The notes under the pieces were generated by a model. The model was not told the origin of the DNA. It was given only the letters and a program-made list of their open reading frames with translations, and ran no database searches. DNA of 64,000 bases from Limnochorda sp. LNt (GTDB lineage: Bacteria; Bacillota; Limnochordia; Limnochordales; Geochordaceae): positions 2,108,001-2,172,000 of the forward strand of contig NZ_CP141614.1 in the NCBI RefSeq assembly GCF_035593265.1, given 5' to 3'. Below, in pieces: positions 11,676 through 59,568 of the stretch (positions within the stretch are counted from its first letter, which is position 1; every line of letters begins with the position of its first letter). Position numbers and translations under genes: made by a program.

Positions 11676-11893
11676 GCACCTCGATGGCATTGTAACCGGT
11701 TATCAGACCAGCCATCAATGCCTCACCGTCGCCTGCAAGGCCTTCCCGGATGACGCCGGGGAGGCGCCTCTAGACCGAGTGGCCAGCGACCTCGGCCCCG
11801 GCACGGCGAAGCGGGTGGGTAAAGCGTCCGCTGCTCCCCACCGGGCGGGCGAGACGGCGAGAGCCATACATCCAGGGGGAGACGCGCCGGGGC

Positions 11894-12172
11894 TTAAATA
11901 CCTTTTCAAATTCCTGCGGAGACACCGACCGAGGGCTCCCTCGCCGGGCAGGCCGTATCGGTCGGCGAGCGCTCACTGCCCGGTGGGCCTGGCGGCTCCC
12001 TGCACCGGCCCGCCTGCTCCGCCGAGACGACTAGCCAGACGATGGGGCCACGTCATGGTCGCCCTGGCGTCCCATGGGGCGTCGCCATCCGTGCCAGCCT
12101 CCCATGCCGCGGCAACCGGCCCTGTCCCTCGCCGCGTCACGGGTCTCGTCCATTTCAACGATCGTTGAAATG
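11894..12172. repeat. palindrome-ended intergenic element, copy A
   Basis: The left end TTAAATACCTTTTCAAATTCC (given here as TTAAATACC...CAAATTCC) is AT-rich in a GC-rich setting, and the right end at 12151-12172 is a perfect inverted repeat around TTTCAACGATCGTTGAAA. Copy B at 13645-13955 resembles it throughout, including sequence outside the two ends (GGAGACGC before, CACGGCG after). It lies between the divergent MoaD-like and SDR genes. Confidence 0.75.
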
Positions 12173-13430: not shown

Positions 13431-13616
13431 GTGAGCGAGAGGCCCTTCGAGCCCGCCTATCTGCGTACGTGCCGAGCTGGGCGGATGGCCGCCAAGGTCC
13501 AACAGGCCCGGGCCATGCTGCGCGACTGCCGGGTCTGCCCCCGGGACTGCCGGGTCAACCGATGGGAGGGCCGCCAGCATCATGCGGCGGCCGGGTGGGA
13601 AGCACGGTGGGGGTAG
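13431..13616 (+). pseudogene. N-terminal fragment of a PflA-like radical SAM protein
   Basis: From GTG 13431 the frame reads FEPAYLRTCRAGRMAAKVQQ and then LRDCRVCPRDCRVNRWEG. This is the typical opening of the PflA-related radical SAM proteins (YLxLxxSGxLxxRVxxAxxxLxxCxxCPRxCxVxR). The similarity stops just where the SAM cluster motif should follow, and the frame ends at 13616, a few bases before element B. The gene was cut by a deletion or by arrival of the element. Confidence 0.7.
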
Positions 13617-13644
13617 TGCGTCCAGACGGGAGACGCGGCGGGGC

Positions 13645-13955
13645 TTAAATACCTTTTTAAATTCCCGTGGAGACACCAACCGAAGGCCCCCTCGCCGGTC
13701 AGGCCGTCCCGGTAGCCGATCACTCACGGCCCGGCCAGCCGGGAGGCTCGCCGCCCCGCCGCGACGGGCAGGCAGAGCCGCCTCGCTGCGCCCGGCACTC
13801 CCGCTCGTTACCCCTGCTGCGAACGGCCCGGCGGCCCAAGCGCTCCACCGCCGGACGGGGCCACGTCGCGGTCGCCCTGGCGTCCCGTGCCGCGGCAAGC
13901 GGCCGTGTCCCTCGCCGTGTCACGGGTTTCGGGCATTTCAACGACCGTTGAAATA
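13645..13955. repeat. palindrome-ended intergenic element, copy B
   Basis: The left end TTAAATACCTTTTTAAATT (13645-13663) and the right palindrome TTTCAACGACCGTTGAAA (13936-13953, one mismatch) match copy A, and internal blocks such as CCTGGCGTCCC, GCCGCGGCAA and GTCACGGGT are shared. It lies between the radical SAM fragment and the end of the gene at 13997. Confidence 0.75.
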
Positions 13956-13996
13956 CCCGCCGAACCGCTCGCCCCGGCCTTCAGCCGCACGGCGCC

Positions 13997-17169: not shown

Positions 17170-17191
17170 GGTTTTGATGGTCATCAAAACC
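17170..17191. terminator. perfect 10-bp hairpin after the kinase gene
   Basis: GGTTTTGATG and CATCAAAACC are separated by 2 bp, giving an almost perfect palindrome 5 bp beyond the stop of the minus-strand kinase gene. There is no U-run on either side. It could end the operon or shield its mRNA, or be a protein-binding site. Confidence 0.45.
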
Positions 17192-23361: not shown

Positions 23362-24845
23362 CTACCCCGCCAGGGTCGCCGACCCCTCCTCGACGAGGTG
23401 GCCGGCCAGCAGGCGCAGGTAGGGGCTGGGGCTACGGAGCTTGCCCTCGTGACGGGCGTGGCCGGTCAGGATGAGGTGGCGCCGAGCCCGGGTGAGGGCC
23501 ACGTAGAGCAGGCGGCGCTCCTCCAGCTCCCGGCCGTCCTTGATGGAGCCGTAGTTGGGGAACTCGTTGTCCGACAGGCCCGCCACGACGACCACCTCGA
23601 ACTCCAACCCCTTGGCCTGGTGCACGGTCAGCACACGCACCCGGTCATCCTCGGGCCCGAGCCGGTCCACGTTGCGGGCCAGGGCGGCGAACGTGAGGAT
23701 GCCTTCCAGCGACGCCAGGGGGTCGGCCGCCGGGTCGTCTCGCTCCACGAAGACCCGCCGCAGCTCGGCGACCTCCTCGGCGAGCGGCAGGAAAGCCCGG
23801 CGCAACCCCTCCACCGCCTCGCGCCGCGCCGGGGCGGTCCGCTCGACGTCACGCAGCAGCCGGGCCAGCAGCTCGAGGGTCGCCCCGACGTCGTCGGCTG
23901 CTCGGTGCGTCGGCCTCGCGCTCGTCCCCAGCCGTTCGCACAGGCCCTGCAGGGTTAGGTCGGGGCCCCCGACGAGCCGCCGCGCCATCGCGTAGGTGTC
24001 GACGACCAGCGGCAGCTCCGTCGTCTCGGTGTCGAGGACCACCACCCGCCCCCGCCGCACCGCCTCCAGCAGAGGCCCGAAGGGGTCGCCGGCGTGCAGG
24101 GCGGCCAGGTCGGCGAAGTCCGTGATGCGCAGCCCTTGGGCTTCGCCCGCCGCGGCCCTCGCCAGCGTCGCCTCTCCGATGCCCCGAGCGGGCCGCTACA
24201 GGACACGGGCCAGGGCGTGACCATCGGCCGGGTTGACCAGCAGGCGCAGGTAGGCCACGGCGTCCTTGACCTCCTGGCGCCGGAAGAACTCGCAGGTCTC
24301 GACGGTCAGGTGCGGGATGCCGGCGCGTTCGAGGGCCTGGGCGATGGTCTGGGCGCGGTGGTTGGGCCGCACCAGGACGCCGACGTCCCGCCAGCGCAGC
24401 GGCTGGCTGGCCCGCGCCTGCTCGGCCTGCAGCCGCAGCAGCCGGGCGGCGACCCAGTCGGCTTCGGCCTCGGTGCTGCGGGCGAAGTGGTAGACGATGG
24501 GTGTCCCCGGCGGGAGATGGGCGGCAGGCCGGGGCCGGGGGCGTCGGCCGAACGTCGCGGCCACCACGTTGGTCGCGTCGAGGAGGCGGCGGGTGGCGCG
24601 GTGGTTCGAGGTCGGCGAAGTCGAGGGCATGGTGCGCCGCCAGGGCGGCCTGGTAGGCCTCGGCCAGCTCCCGTGACGGCGTGTCGAACCCGGTGAAGAG
24701 GGCTGGGAGGTCGGGCGGCCAGCGGAGCGCGCGGGCGGGGGCCGTCACCTTGGCCCGGCTGATGCCGTCGAAGAGAGGGCCGGCCTCGCTGAGGGAGCGC
24801 CCCGTCACTGCACCGGCCCCATACACCTGCTCGCCGTTTGGGAGT
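23362..24845 (-). pseudogene. UvrD-type helicase with DnaQ-like insert, multiply broken
   Basis: Pieces of one protein can be followed from 24845 down: AYQAALAAHHALDFADL, then in another frame NHRATRRLLDATNVVAATFG, ARSTEAEADWVAARLLRLQ, VGVLVRPNHRAQTIAQALE, RGIGEATLARA, a DnaQ-like core VVVLDTETTEL...THRAADDVGATLELLARLL, and the helicase end TVHQAKGLEFEVVVVAGL and LLYVALTRARRHLIL. Defects: the N-terminal Walker A region is missing; the Walker B region is deleted with a frameshift near 24620; a TAG at 24196-24198 stands in frame; the exonuclease insert has lost about 90 residues between DTETT and the later helix. It cannot make an active helicase. Confidence 0.85.
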
Positions 24846-28569: not shown

Positions 28570-29292
28570 CTACGAACGCTTCATGGGCGGCCAGCCAGGC
28601 CGGGTCGAAGCGGACCGCCGCGCCGCCCCCACCAGGGCCAACGCGTCGTCGACCAGCTCTTGGAGAAGCTGTCGGCGGGCCTCCGGGTCGTCCCAGTCGA
28701 TCCTGGACTTGCCCGGCTGGTGGTAATCGGTGCGCTTCAGCACGGCCGAAAGCGGACCGTCCCGCTCGTGCATCCGGGCCACCGCCAGGACCCGCACGAC
28801 CGCTTTGCGGATGAGGGTGTAGGTGTCCTGCACGGCGGCCCCGCCGTGGATCAGAAAGGAGTCGACGATCTGGGAGCGCTCCGGCGAAAAAAGCCCCGCC
28901 TGCTTCGCCGAGGCCAGCGTCCGCTCCAGCATGGCCGTCGCGATGCCATGCTGCAAGAAGCGTCGGCGGTGGTCGCACAGCGTCACCGCATCGATCCCCT
29001 CAAAGTCCCGCCCCGCCAGGATGGCCAGCTTCACCCGGTCGTCGAAGCGGGATTCCTGCTCCATCTCCCGGTCCGAGTAGCCCTTCTCCACCTGGATCAA
29101 CAGCGCCAGAAACGTGTGGACGGGGCTCACCGAAGGCCTTCCGGTGCGGGCGTCGAACAGCGGAGCAAACATCGATTCGTCCAGGTTCTGCACCGCCCAG
29201 TCGTGGAGTCGCCACCAGTAGGAGTCCTTGGGGATGCGCTGTCGCCAGGTGACGTCATCGAAGGTGGTCTGCCGGTTGCGCCGGCCCAGCAC
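28570..29292 (-). pseudogene. IS1182-like transposase, C-terminal half missing
   Basis: From a GTG at 29292 the frame begins VLGRRNRQTTFDDVTW and continues SYWWRLHDWAVQNLDESMFA, TGRPSVSPVHTFLALLIQVE and SDREMEQESRFDDRVKLAIL. This is the InsH/DUF772-type N-terminal half of IS1182-family transposases. After about residue 230 the sequence ends in unrelated codons, so the DDE catalytic core is largely absent. It is a dead remnant that abuts the truncated nuclease gene. Confidence 0.8.
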
Positions 29293-29554
29293 GCCGTTCC
29301 ACTCCCTGCCCGGAGGGGGTTTCCAATGGCATCCTACCACGGAAATAGGCGTGAACGCAAGGATTGTGAAGCAAGACAAAGCAATCCTGCAGCTATGCAG
29401 CGACGTTCTCGCTCGTTGTCTAGGAGCCCCCGTCAACTCTTATCGTCGGGTTTCCATTCTTCAAACCTCATGAGCTTATACCATCACGCGCCTGCCAGCA
29501 GGGCTGGACCATCCGAAAGACGGCAGACACCGGGTCCTTTGAGAAAGGTCCCAC

Positions 29555-29758
29555 GTGATTGCCGAGCGCGACGCCAACCTCCGTATCTTCGAAGTCAAGG
29601 GTTACCCCTCGCCCGTCTACCACCACGGCCCCAAGAAGGGGCAGCCCAAGAAAGCCTCTCTCGGTCTGCAGGCTAAACACTGGTTCGCTGATGGGTTGTT
29701 CTCGGCGATCGTGCGACAAACGGCCGCGGCAAGGAGGGAGTGGCTGCAATGCGGTTAG
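29555..29758 (+). pseudogene. small EVKG-motif protein, probably 5'-truncated
   Basis: The frame reads ANLRIFEVKGYPSPVYHHGP, KKGQPKKASLGLQAKHWFAD and ends in REWLQCG. The E-V-K after a strand suggests the second half of a PD-(D/E)XK-like site. The GTG at 29555 would make only 67 residues, too short for a domain. Its stop overlaps the ATG of the interrupted PD-(D/E)XK-like gene by 10 bp, so the two were once translated together. Confidence 0.5.
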
Positions 29759-29804
29759 CTGCCACAGATCTGGACGCTCGACTGTCGACCTTCGTATCCT
29801 TAGC

Positions 29805-31645
29805 CGGAAGTTCAGCAAGCCCGATATCCCTCAAATCACGGCAATGACGCCAACGGAGTGGGATTCAAGCGTTCAGGCTTCTGGCTACGCCAGGGGAACC
29901 CCCAGCAACTGGAAGATCCGCTGGTGCAGCGGCTCGGGCTCGCCGAGCATCTGGATTTCCTGACCGGCCACCTCGACCGTGTGGCGCTGCAGCGTCTCCA
30001 GCTGCATCATCAGCCCTTCGAAGGACTGACGAGGGTCCTCCGCCAGCAGGGGCTCAAGCGCCCGCTCCATGTGCCAGCGCACGTACAACGCCAGCATGCA
30101 CAAAAAGGCGTGGGCCCGCACCCGGTCCTCCAGCCGATGGTAGACCGGACGCAGGTCCAGGGCGCTTTTCATCGTGCGGAAGTTTTGCTCCAGGGCCCGC
30201 AGCGACTTGTACGTGGCCTGCACCTTGGCCGGCTCCATCCGGTCGGCCGGCACGTTGGTGCGCAGCACGTAAAACCCGTCCAGCTCCGCCTCCCGGGCGA
30301 TGGAGGCCTCCTTGCGCCGGAAGGCGAAGTGGCCGTCGCGGATCTCCAGCTGGAAGTGCTTGCCCACCTTCCAGCGCCTCAGCACCTTGCCCACGGCCAC
30401 CCCGATCTCGTCGGCCGTCAGGGGCTTGCGGCGGCGACGGCGCACCCGGGCTTCGATTTTGGCCAGCTCCCGCTCCGTGGCCAAAAGCAGCGCCTCGCGC
30501 TTTTGCCGGCGCTCCTCGGCCACCAGCGGATTGTAGCAGACCACCAGCCGCTCCCCGGGCCGCTCGGGGTCGGCGATCTCCGCCAGGTCCCGCCGGTCGA
30601 ACAGGCCCGGCTGAAAGAACCCTTCATCCCGCAGCTTCTGGATCTCCGGCGCCCGCAGGGCCGTGATCCACCCGAAGCCCACCGCCTCCAAGTCGCTCAA
30701 TCGGGCCTTGACGATCATGCCCCGGTCGCCGACGAACACGACGTACTCGATGCCGAACCGAGCCCGGACCCGGGCGATCTGGGCCCGCAGCGTCTCGGGA
30801 TCCCCCACGTCGCCGGGGAACACCTCCACGGCCACGGGACACCCCTCGTCGTTGGTGAGCAGCCCCACGCAGAACTGCTTCTTGCCCCGCTTCTTGTCCC
30901 GGTTGTACCCGAAGCGGGCCAACGGGCAGGTCTTGCCCTCCAGGTACACGCTGGTCAAGTCGTAGAGCACCATGGCGTTGGGCGTCAGGTGCCGGCGCGC
31001 CAGCTTCGCCTCGATAGCGGCCTGACGGGCCAGCAACTCGTCCATGGCCCGGTAGACGTCGTTGACGTCCTCGCCGTTGTGGGGCAACCGCAGAAGCTGC
31101 GGCAACGTGGTGGTCGTCCACCACAGGGTCCCGCCCAGCTTGGAGGAGGGCCGCAGGATGCGCATGACGACGACGGCCAGGGCCAAGCGCACCCAGTCGG
31201 CCGAGCGAGAGTAGAGCACCTGGTCGAGGCCCAGCTGGCGGATGGTGCCCACGACGGCGGCGACGGCCCCGTGCTGGCGGGACTGGCGGATCTTCACCGT
31301 CTGCGGCACCGGCGCCACCGGCTCGCCCCGCAGGGCTCGCCGGACCAGCTCCAGGACGGCTTCCGGCAGGTGGGAGAGGTTGGCGAGGGTCCGATGCTTC
31401 ACCTTGCCGCCTTCCCGGTAGGTCTGGCGCAGCAGGTGGTAGGTGTAGACCTTGTCGCCCTGCCGGCGGCGGATGGTCTCGATGTGCATGGCACTGGATA
31501 CGCGTCTCATGGCTCAATGGTAGCACATGACAACTTCCAAGGCAATACGTTAGGGCCATACTCTTGGCTACATTGGCACGCGTTCAACCTGTTTGAATGC
31601 TCACCGCTATGCGGGTCTCACCCGCTGCCAGCCCCTGAACTTCCG
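29805..31645. mobile_element. IS1634-family insertion sequence with 6-bp target duplication
   Basis: The element is 1841 bp. Its ends are the 11-bp perfect inverted repeats CGGAAGTTCAG (29805-29815) and CTGAACTTCCG (31635-31645). It is flanked by CTTAGC at 29799-29804 and again at 31646-31651. It carries one transposase gene on the minus strand and nothing else. The intact ends and gene suggest a recent insertion. Confidence 0.95.
29885..31510 (-). CDS. IS1634-family DDE transposase
   Basis: The 541-residue protein begins IETIRRRQGDKVYTYHLLRQ and has the family blocks MVLYDLTSVYLEG with the first catalytic Asp, FVGDRGMIVKARL with the second, and FRTMKSALDLRPVYHRLEDR with the last acidic position region, followed by the helical end typical of IS1634 (ALYVRWHMERALEPLL). 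It fills most of the insertion sequence at 29805-31645 and is full length for the family. It lies opposite to the gene it interrupts. Confidence 0.93.
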   Translation of the reverse strand: MRRVSSAMHIETIRRRQGDKVYTYHLLRQTYREGGKVKHRTLANLSHLPEAVLELVRRALRGEPVAPVPQTVKIRQSRQHGAVAAVVGTIRQLGLDQVLYSRSADWVRLALAVVVMRILRPSSKLGGTLWWTTTTLPQLLRLPHNGEDVNDVYRAMDELLARQAAIEAKLARRHLTPNAMVLYDLTSVYLEGKTCPLARFGYNRDKKRGKKQFCVGLLTNDEGCPVAVEVFPGDVGDPETLRAQIARVRARFGIEYVVFVGDRGMIVKARLSDLEAVGFGWITALRAPEIQKLRDEGFFQPGLFDRRDLAEIADPERPGERLVVCYNPLVAEERRQKREALLLATERELAKIEARVRRRRRKPLTADEIGVAVGKVLRRWKVGKHFQLEIRDGHFAFRRKEASIAREAELDGFYVLRTNVPADRMEPAKVQATYKSLRALEQNFRTMKSALDLRPVYHRLEDRVRAHAFLCMLALYVRWHMERALEPLLAEDPRQSFEGLMMQLETLQRHTVEVAGQEIQMLGEPEPLHQRIFQLLGVPLA

Positions 31646-47147: not shown

Positions 47148-47658
47148 GCGAGAGCACTCCTGATGAGCTTGGGGTCACTGCGATCTTACGAGCCGCGCAC
47201 GCACGACGCCTATGGGCGGATCCTGCAAAATGGTGGGGATCCCCGTATGTCAGGGTGGCCCTCGGCTTCCTCTTGCCACTATGCACAAGGTTCGAGGGGG
47301 CACGGGCACGGGGTGCGCGGGGTTCGCTGCGGATACATAGCGGATTTTCAATAGGTATTTAAATTCCCCTGGTCACGCAGACAGAAGGCATACACCCCCA
47401 GACGGATACACCTCACCCCTGTTGCCACGGCGAAGCAGCCCGGCTCGGTTGAAATGGTCTCCGAAGGACGCCCGCGCTCGAGGCGCCGCTGGATCCGGCG
47501 AAGGGATACGAGGAGGCGAGCCGGGGGATCTGAGACAGGGGGCGGCGTTGCCGATTCTGTGGGCTGGAGCCCCGCCATCTTCGCCCCCGCACCCGTGATA
47601 CAATGCCCCGTGACACCATGCGTCGCGGGCGCCGGGCTGCGGGGTGGGTGCAGGTGCC
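47148..47658. other. intergenic region holding the left end of element D
   Basis: No coding frame. It holds the promoter region of the minus-strand GH gene and of the plus-strand MNT gene, and the AT-rich end at 47345-47369. A degenerate 25-bp copy of the end of the cytochrome gene (GGCGAAGGGATACGAGGAGG, compare 50310-50332) occurs at 47497-47516. Confidence 0.4.
47345..47369. repeat. AT-rich end of element D
   Basis: TTTTCAATAGGTATTTAAAT followed by TCCCC matches the left end of copies A, B, C and E, with one arm degenerate. The matching right-end palindrome lies at 48527-48548, beyond an MNT/HEPN gene pair. Confidence 0.65.
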
Positions 47659-48033
47659 GTGAAGGCCCCTGAGAAGGCGCAAGAAGTCGAGCGCTGGCTA
47701 CCGGGCGCGGTCAATCGCCTGGCGGCGCTGGGCGTGGAGCGCGTGTTCCTCTTCGGGTCGTGGGCCAGGGGCCGCGCGACGCGCCGTTCCGACCTGGACC
47801 TCCTGGTGATATGGCAGACCGACCTGCCGCCCACCGAGCGCATCGGCCTGGTGCTACAGGCGCTCAAGGACGCCCCCCTGCCGGTCGAGCCCGTCGTTTA
47901 CACGCCGGAGGAGTTCGCGGACCGGCGTGACCTGCCCTTCCTGAGGGGCGTCCTCAAGGAAGCGAGGGTCCTGTATGAGCGTGGAGAAGCAGCGACGCGA
48001 AGCGGAGAGGTGGCTCCGCCAGGCCGAAGATGA
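47659..48033 (+). CDS. MNT nucleotidyltransferase, second complete module
   Basis: From GTG 47659 (AGGTG just upstream) the 124-residue protein has the MNT core FLFGSWARGRATRRSDLDLL with Trp in the usual Ser/Arg position, and VEPVVYTPEEF, a DUF86-partner-like C-terminus. It should regulate or modify the HEPN protein encoded next. The two genes overlap by 59 bp. The sequence differs from the module at 3697, so it is a separate acquisition. Confidence 0.88.
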   Translation: MKAPEKAQEVERWLPGAVNRLAALGVERVFLFGSWARGRATRRSDLDLLVIWQTDLPPTERIGLVLQALKDAPLPVEPVVYTPEEFADRRDLPFLRGVLKEARVLYERGEAATRSGEVAPPGRR

Positions 48034-48412
48034 TCTCGATGCCGCCCGCCTGCTCTTGACGAGCGGCAAGTTCGCGCAGGCGGCCTTCTTCTCGCAGCAA
48101 GCCGGCGAGAAGGCGATGAAGGCTGTCTGGCTGGCGACGGACGCAGACCCCTGGGGCCATTCGCTGGGCCGCCTGGTCAGGGACCTGCCGGATCCGGAAG
48201 TCCGCGTGCGCTTTGCGCCGCTGCTCGACGCCGCGCTGGCGCTCGACAAGCTCTACATCCCCACCCGTTATCCCGATGCGCTCGCTGACCTCATCCCCGG
48301 CGAAGCCTACACGCAGCGCGAGGCGGAGGGCGCCCTGGCCCACTCGGCCGCCATCCTGCGAGCCGTCCGGGAGTGGATGGCGGAGCAGCCCCAAGCCAGC
48401 CCAGACGGCTGA
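47975..48412 (+). CDS. HEPN domain protein of the second MNT module
   Basis: The 145-residue helical protein has the HEPN core EAERWLRQAEDDLDAARLLL and GKFAQAAFFSQQAGEKAMKA, then GHSLGRLVRDLPD and YIPTRYPDALADL. ATG 47975 lies inside the MNT gene, so the pair is co-translated. Its HEPN type (AAFFSQQAGEKAMKA) differs from the UPF0332 type at 4080. Confidence 0.9.
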   Translation: MSVEKQRREAERWLRQAEDDLDAARLLLTSGKFAQAAFFSQQAGEKAMKAVWLATDADPWGHSLGRLVRDLPDPEVRVRFAPLLDAALALDKLYIPTRYPDALADLIPGEAYTQREAEGALAHSAAILRAVREWMAEQPQASPDG

Positions 48413-48526
48413 CTCCGGTCTGGCGGCCTTCTCGACGACAGCCGGTGCCCGTTACGTCCTAAAAGGTAGGCCGGGCCGACAGGTGTCCCGTCGAGGGCAT
48501 GGGGCAGCAGATGGCGGTCGTGGCGC

Positions 48527-48548
48527 AATTCAACGATCGTTGAAATGC
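48527..48548. repeat. right-end palindrome of element D
   Basis: The sequence around TTCAACGATCGTTGAA (48529-48544) is a perfect palindrome, identical in its core to the right end of copies A and C. It lies 114 bp after the HEPN stop. Confidence 0.7.
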
Positions 48549-51024: not shown

Positions 51025-51258
51025 GGCCTCGGCCCCCTTCCTGTCTCGCATCGCAGCTGGCCTCGCCGACCCCGTGCCGGCCCGCACGCGCCCGGTACGT
51101 CGCGGCGATGGTGACGTGTGCCCCTCCGTACCCACCCGCAAGGGGCAGCTGAGGCTCGATCTCATCTTACCAACCCCAGCCTCCCGCACCAGGTAGTCAC
51201 GCAGCCTGCCGCCGAGCGGGGGCGCGAGCATGGGATTCGGGTGGAGCGATAGCGGGTT

Positions 51259-51540
51259 TTTAAATACGTATTTAAATTCCCATGGGCGCTACCGAGGACA
51301 CCCTGTGCGCTCGCGGACGAGCATCCCGGCCAGCCGCACCGAAAGCGACGGTACGCACCCCCCGAGGACGGTCTTCCCCGGCCTCCAGGTCGGCAGCGGG
51401 CGCGCGTCGTCGCGTGCCGATGCGGGCGCAGAGGGAGTCGGCGCCCGGACGAACACGCGGTCCCGTCAGCCACTAACCGGCGCCACGTCGGCGATGTGGC
51501 ACACGGGACGGGGTCGCGGCGCACTTCAACGATCGTTGAG
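51259..51540. repeat. palindrome-ended intergenic element, copy C
   Basis: The left end TTTAAATACGTATTTAAA (51259-51276) is a perfect 18-bp palindrome. The right end at 51526-51539 is TCAACGATCGTTGA, a perfect 14-bp palindrome with the same core as A and D. The spacing is 282 bp. The interior is GC-rich and unlike A and B except for short blocks near the ends (AATTCCC and CGGGACGGGG). Confidence 0.75.
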
Positions 51541-51593
51541 AGGATCATTTCCGGGGAAATGGGGCGGAGCCGAGCGTCTCGCCCGGGCCGCTG

Positions 51594-59110: not shown

Positions 59111-59568
59111 GGCGCGGACCTCACGGCACAGGCTCATATCCCATTCTTAAAGCGTTTGTCCCGTCCGACACGCATTGGCGCGCCGAGCAGGTAAGTTTCA
59201 GTCTGCAACATCTCAGGCCCACATTACCACGCCCGCCGTCTTCTTGCAAGCCCTTTCCGTCGATGAAGCCGAAGGGCTGGCGGCACGTGCGGGCGCCGGC
59301 GGGCGCTGACGGGCGCCGACGCGCGCCGACGGGGCCCCGCGAAGGTGACCGTCGGCCCTACGGGGGTCGCGATGGGTGCGGGTTCGCGAGAGTAGGGGTC
59401 TTTAAATAGGTATTTAAATTCCGCCGGGTGTCGAGACCGATACCCCCTGCACCGCCCGCGCCCCGCCGACCGCCGCTTGCGGCGCCTCGTGGGACGGTGG
59501 CGGCACGGCGCGGCGCCCGGAGGCGCCACGGACAGGGAGCGCCGGCGAGGGAGGCGCTGGCGGCGCCC
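59111..59568. other. intergenic region with the lone end of element E
   Basis: No gene. It holds the ROK promoter region (an AT-rich GGATATGAG-type stretch near 59140) and the AT-rich palindrome at 59401. The part right of it is GC-rich and without the TTTCAACG-type palindrome. Confidence 0.4.
59401..59422. repeat. AT-rich end of element family, copy E (no right end)
   Basis: TTTAAATAGGTATTTAAATT followed by CC matches the left end of A-D. No TTTCAACGATCGTTGAAA-like partner is found in the following gap before the M28 gene ends at 59569. Confidence 0.7.

Follow-up and report, generated by a model that had tools for sequence, protein, structure and literature searches.

We detected a family of non-coding repeats at 13 loci of the Limnochorda sp. 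LNt genome, with two unlike palindromic ends in a fixed order, sharp outer limits of homology, an intergenic location and a restriction to one species among those searched. The sequence comparisons suggest that the family is probably, with a good measure of doubt, an old, species-restricted, non-autonomous interspersed repeat without terminal inverted repeats. We infer its spread rather than observe it, since a clean empty site was not found.

Short repeats in bacteria are as a rule classed either as MITEs, which have inverted terminal repeats, or as REP/PATE, which have a single palindrome type together with a Y1 transposase. A family with unlike palindromes that lacks both terminal inverted repeats and Y1 would suggest that this little-studied lineage has a mobilising or site-binding protein not yet recognised. 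For Limnochordia, three closed genomes of cultivated strains are reported (PMC11456536).

Results

Genome-wide census of the element copies

The window is the 64-kb stretch at 2,108,001-2,172,000 of contig NZ_CP141614.1 (GCF_035593265.1), and the left (L) and right (R) palindromes were counted by pattern and model searches over the whole genome (3.02 Mb, single contig). The searches detected 13 L and 11 R sites, and for 10 of the 11 R sites an L was found 165-298 bp upstream, start to start. By simple arithmetic (13 L in 3.02 Mb), about 0.003 per R would be expected to lie <=300 bp from any L by chance, and each palindrome had an expectation of 0.00 in shuffled windows. The order in the paired copies is invariably L and then R. 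The element is about 215-350 bp long (215-348 bp as measured), with the exception of copy D (1.23 kb). The features, in window coordinates unless marked, are as follows.

11863-12172, + strand, copy A, whole element (310 bp; copy-to-copy homology)
11885-11917, no strand given, copy A L core, AT-rich palindrome with GG and CC arms (conservation profile)
12152-12172, no strand given, copy A R core, the right element edge (conservation profile and edge comparison)
13614-13955, + strand, copy B, whole element (342 bp; paralogue of A)
47316-47397, + strand, copy D left unit (R1 model match, 72 bits)
47659-48033, + strand, MntA-like antitoxin gene between the D ends (below the NCBIfam cut-off)
47975-48412, + strand, HEPN (HepT-like) toxin gene between the D ends (Pfam PF05168, 1.6e-26)
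48493-48547, + strand, copy D right unit (R2 model match, 41.6 bits)
51229-51543, + strand, copy C, whole element (315 bp)
59371-59452, + strand, copy E, left unit alone (no R within 1 kb)
Genome 1318200, copy H
Genome 1324855, copy I
Genome ~1403.4 kb, minus strand, copy N
Genome 1997207, copy F
Genome 2004314, copy J
Genome 2086745, copy G
Genome 2175704, copy M, L alone
Genome 2187093, minus strand, copy K

The L palindromes of the window start at 11893 (A), 13644 (B), 51259 (C), 47346 (D) and 59401 (E), and the R palindromes at 12153 (A), 13936 (B), 51524 (C) and 48528 (D). In copy A the 18-mers are CTTAAATACCTTTTCAAA for L and TTTCAACGATCGTTGAAA for R. The earlier note, made on the window alone, had placed the palindromes to within 1 bp, and its common layout of A, B and C was recovered, each being an L-to-R pair, as was the lone left end of E. 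Its widely spaced pair D was also found, with two genes enclosed and the R start corrected to 48528. Seven further pairs (F, J, G, H, I, K and N) bring the family to ten L-R pairs in fixed order, in agreement with the proposal of one non-coding family with two different palindromic ends; with 10 of the 11 R sites paired, the palindromes are not scattered independently of each other, which the note had named as the refuting case. The single orientation noted for the copies holds within the window and fails outside it, K and N being on the opposite strand.

All copies fall in two stretches of the chromosome, 1.318-1.403 Mb and 1.997-2.187 Mb. Sampled GC skew has mostly positive values to ~1.5 Mb and negative values beyond 1.65 Mb, and because of this change of sign the replication terminus is probably near 1.6 Mb.

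Other features were observed in the window. A UvrD-type helicase at 23362-24630 is split into two separate ORFs and is probably a broken gene. At 28570-31489 an IS1182-type transposase fragment adjoins a full-length IS1634-type transposase, and at 17172-17189 there is one AT-rich near-palindrome, TTTTGATGGTCATCAAAA, which is not related to L or R.

Boundaries and conservation of the element

The conservation profile defined an L core of ~33 bp with dyad symmetry, TAGnGGtTTTTAAATAGcTaTTTAAAttCCnCt, and an R core, aTTCAACGATCGTTGAAATG, which is a palindrome of ~20 bp. The two 18-mers, L TTTAAATASSTATTTAAA and R TTTCAACGATCGTTGAAA, are identical at 10/18 positions. Edges were compared between copies with the related pairs A/B and H/I left out, and the homology between copies extends over L-30..+52 and R-35..+20, counted from the 18-mer starts. 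The conservation z reached 35 in the cores, was mostly 3-7 in the arms and ~0 outside; beyond both outer limits and through most of the interior the homology is at background. The comparison showed an element unit of about L-30 to R+20 with sharp outer limits. The earlier extent of copy A (11894-12172) was thus correct at its right edge, 12172, and short at its left edge, which lies ~30 bp left of the L palindrome (11863).

At R the inner arm is conserved for ~35 bp, and the outer side lacks any conservation past +20. This one-sided conservation makes R the edge of the unit, and it is unlike the expectation for a symmetric binding site or an RNA hairpin. Terminal inverted repeats were not detected, the inverted similarity of the flanks at L-30/R+20 being not above that of cross-copy pairs, and a target-site duplication was likewise not detected, as the flanks resembled each other no more than cross-copy pairs did (p = 0.19). 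The missing terminal inverted repeats and the unlike ends bear out the earlier view that this is not a TIR-type MITE.

The cores are near invariant while the arms drift, and the interiors are non-coding and mostly unalignable between copies, which are unusually diverged for a mobile repeat. A and B share an interior, as proposed, at 79% identity over the aligned bases with many gaps; their homology spans ~13591 to 13995 in B, a limited stretch in non-paralogous gene settings. The parts that C was said to share proved to be the end units, with no detectable interior similarity to the other copies.

The ends could fold as hairpins, and the whole elements K, N and J are more stable than shuffles, which might be expected of a family of structured small RNAs of ~300 nt, both ends of which form hairpins. 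On visual inspection the arms of J, K and B seemed convincingly to covary, but this failed the permutation test between copies: the left arms showed no preference for their own right arm over those of other copies (p 0.16-0.9). The pair count in the L stem gave a weak signal (20-46 of 500 shuffles by three measures). Neither strand of the interiors folds more stably than dinucleotide shuffles, R has no conservation in its outer arm, there is no Rfam match, and no conserved sequence was found beyond L-30 on the upstream side, the expected place of a promoter. We disfavour this alternative of the earlier note because the arms do not co-evolve within copies, and consider a structured RNA highly improbable.

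Gene context of the copies

According to gene positions from a codon-usage gene model built for this genome, every one of the 13 copies lies in intergenic DNA between predicted genes; D has two genes between its ends. The left-hand gene is transcribed away from the element in 11/13 copies, with L often 150-260 bp upstream of its start, and 6 of these 11 diverging genes have regulatory products (ROK, IclR, ArsR twice, ECF sigma and histidine kinase). In the copies that have both a convergent right gene and an R (B, J, K and N), R lies 40-50 bp from the stop codon of that gene. An SDR gene lies between A and B, which are in direct orientation.

H and I occupy paralogous segments: the ArsR-type gene to their left has diverged, the stretch to their right is almost identical, and the element in between has diverged too. 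Their R core is kept at 20/21 positions and their L core at 24/32, which is no higher than the conservation of the surroundings. The paralogous setting indicates that one copy can stay in place for long, through a segmental duplication. The almost identical right-hand stretches are L031 7516-7670 + 8199-8515 and 14242-14396 + 14397-14713; ~0.5 kb of an iron-sulfur gene is missing from one of the two, which looks like recent gene conversion or duplication with deletion.

This gene context would suit a two-site regulatory or chromosome-organising module, in which L, the 33-bp dyad, would be bound by one protein and the 20-bp R by this protein or a second one, for instance as an operator loop ahead of the left gene. 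The diverging left genes and the regulators among them, the dyad-symmetric near-invariant cores with drifting arms, the R core kept between H and I, and the confinement of the copies to the terminus-proximal part all agree with such a module. The sharp outer edge and the inner-side-only conservation at R are unexpected for a symmetric operator, and a composite of 80 bp and 55 bp is unlikely to arise 13 times through point mutation. Moreover, the L-R spacing varies from 165 to 298 bp and is 1.18 kb in D, E and M are without R, and the L core of H and I is no better kept than its surroundings. We regard the module as rather unlikely, and keep it in view since copies of the element lie upstream of regulators and H and I have persisted.

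In copy D, L and R are 1182 bp apart start to start and enclose the MntA-HepT-like pair, which hints that unlike palindromic ends can flank cargo. The reading of D as two truncated elements was rejected, as there was no second L and no convincing second R.

Distribution in other genomes

The L pattern had no match among 72 other genomes of the class and the L model none in 40 relatives; R had no match in 60 relatives except for one single-mismatch site in an AT-richer genome. Both palindromes are missing from the same-genus and same-family genomes searched. These searches showed a family restricted to one species among those covered. Exact R palindromes occur in eight unrelated genomes, where no good L is nearby, and a single L match in viral contigs was rejected as a chance match in AT-rich DNA. 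The plasmid search with copy C as the query gave no match, and the exact L and R palindromes were not found in the literature searched.

Relatives lack the unit at C, E, J, K and M, loci where the intergenic DNA is unalignable or the synteny broken. The earlier suggestion to define the exact ends at orthologous empty loci gave no clean site in relatives: no intact empty site was alignable, intergenic DNA being saturated between species and synteny being broken at C and K. On the right side of C, the stretch shared with another species (G002) begins at 51546 (R+22), 2-4 bp beyond the element edge, in agreement with the right edge found from the copies alone. Directly right of C, at 51546-51562, lies CATTTCCGGGGAAATG, one mismatch from the palindrome ATTTCCCGGGAAAT, which we take to be the Noc-binding sequence; the stretch is much the same in G002 (CATTCCCGGGGAAATG).

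L-like matches at 1347434 and 1296582 were rejected as family copies, as they belong to two copies of a different repeated segment. This 457-bp repeat (98.7% identical; L091 6579-7035 and L090 6061-6517) contains a small helix-turn-helix-like ORF and, close to one of its edges, an AT-rich palindrome resembling L (L model E 0.014 and 0.16), and is probably another mobile segment.

Search for a mobilising enzyme

No autonomous copy or transposase bearing these ends was found in the genome. The Y1 transposase (PF01797) was not found either, by a search that was positive in 5/14 control genomes, and neither was the Y2 transposase (PF04986; IS91/ISCR/Helitron-like), for which the search was silent in all control genomes too and hence carries little weight.

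The earlier note had proposed IS200/IS605-like elements, and the family could be a PATE-like remnant of such transposons, which move as single strands with a near-terminal hairpin at each end. The lack of inverted terminal repeats, the palindromes near both ends and the absence of a target duplication are as in PATEs (PMC3119063), and 9/10 of the right-replichore copies lie on one strand, as lagging-strand insertion might give, although this strand bias is confounded with gene direction. The two ends are equal at only 10/18 positions, and no conserved target tetranucleotide was seen at the left edge. Membership in IS200/IS605 is unsupported because no Y1 transposase was found and the ends are unlike, and we consider the remnant quite improbable.

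Discussion

The interspersed repeat that we favour would have spread by copying of the unit to new sites after the split from the nearest sequenced relative. A mobilising enzyme would have recognised both palindromic ends, either as hairpins in single strands or as double-strand sites with dyad symmetry, and would since have been lost or be one not yet recognised. The interiors would then have drifted to saturation, with the palindromic cores staying nearly invariant. Near-invariant cores amid drifted interiors suggest that a protein may still bind them.

The failure to align an intact empty site or to find an autonomous copy or transposase with these ends, the absent target duplication, the high divergence of the copies and the persistence of H and I in place speak against mobility, and the clustering in 1.32-1.40 and 2.00-2.19 Mb, together with left genes pointing away in 11/13 copies, also fits a regulatory role. 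That the family is a new kind of mobile DNA, with different palindromic sites at its ends, a capacity for cargo (D) and a type of enzyme not yet linked to such ends, appears unlikely.

In how it works the family is most like the palindrome-associated transposable elements (PATEs) of Haloquadratum walsbyi, which are also short, non-coding and free of terminal inverted repeats; they too have palindromes close to both ends, lack a target duplication and include heterogeneous and terminal-only copies (PMC3119063). PATEs have palindromes related to the ones in IS605-type transposons, and when a PATE is homogeneous its two ends have similar sequences (PMC3119063). Here the ends differ and the right palindrome is at the very edge. 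We do not file the family as PATE because its palindromes are not alike and the Y1 transposase was not found. Intergenic palindromes in pairs are common to REP/BIME as well; REPs (PMC2817692) have one palindrome type in alternating orientations, usually >100 copies and a REP-associated tyrosine transposase, whereas this genome has two unlike palindromes and 10-13 copies, with Y1 not found.

MITEs are similarly short, transposase-free, intergenic and present in several copies, but the missing terminal inverted repeats mean that this is not a MITE, and a target-site duplication was not detected. The palindromic binding sites of chromosome-organising proteins (parS, NBS, SBS and matS) offer the last comparison: the palindromes described here are, like them, near invariant, intergenic and confined to part of the chromosome, and unlike them they comprise two joined site types that follow a fixed order, have homologous inner arms and end sharply on the outer side.
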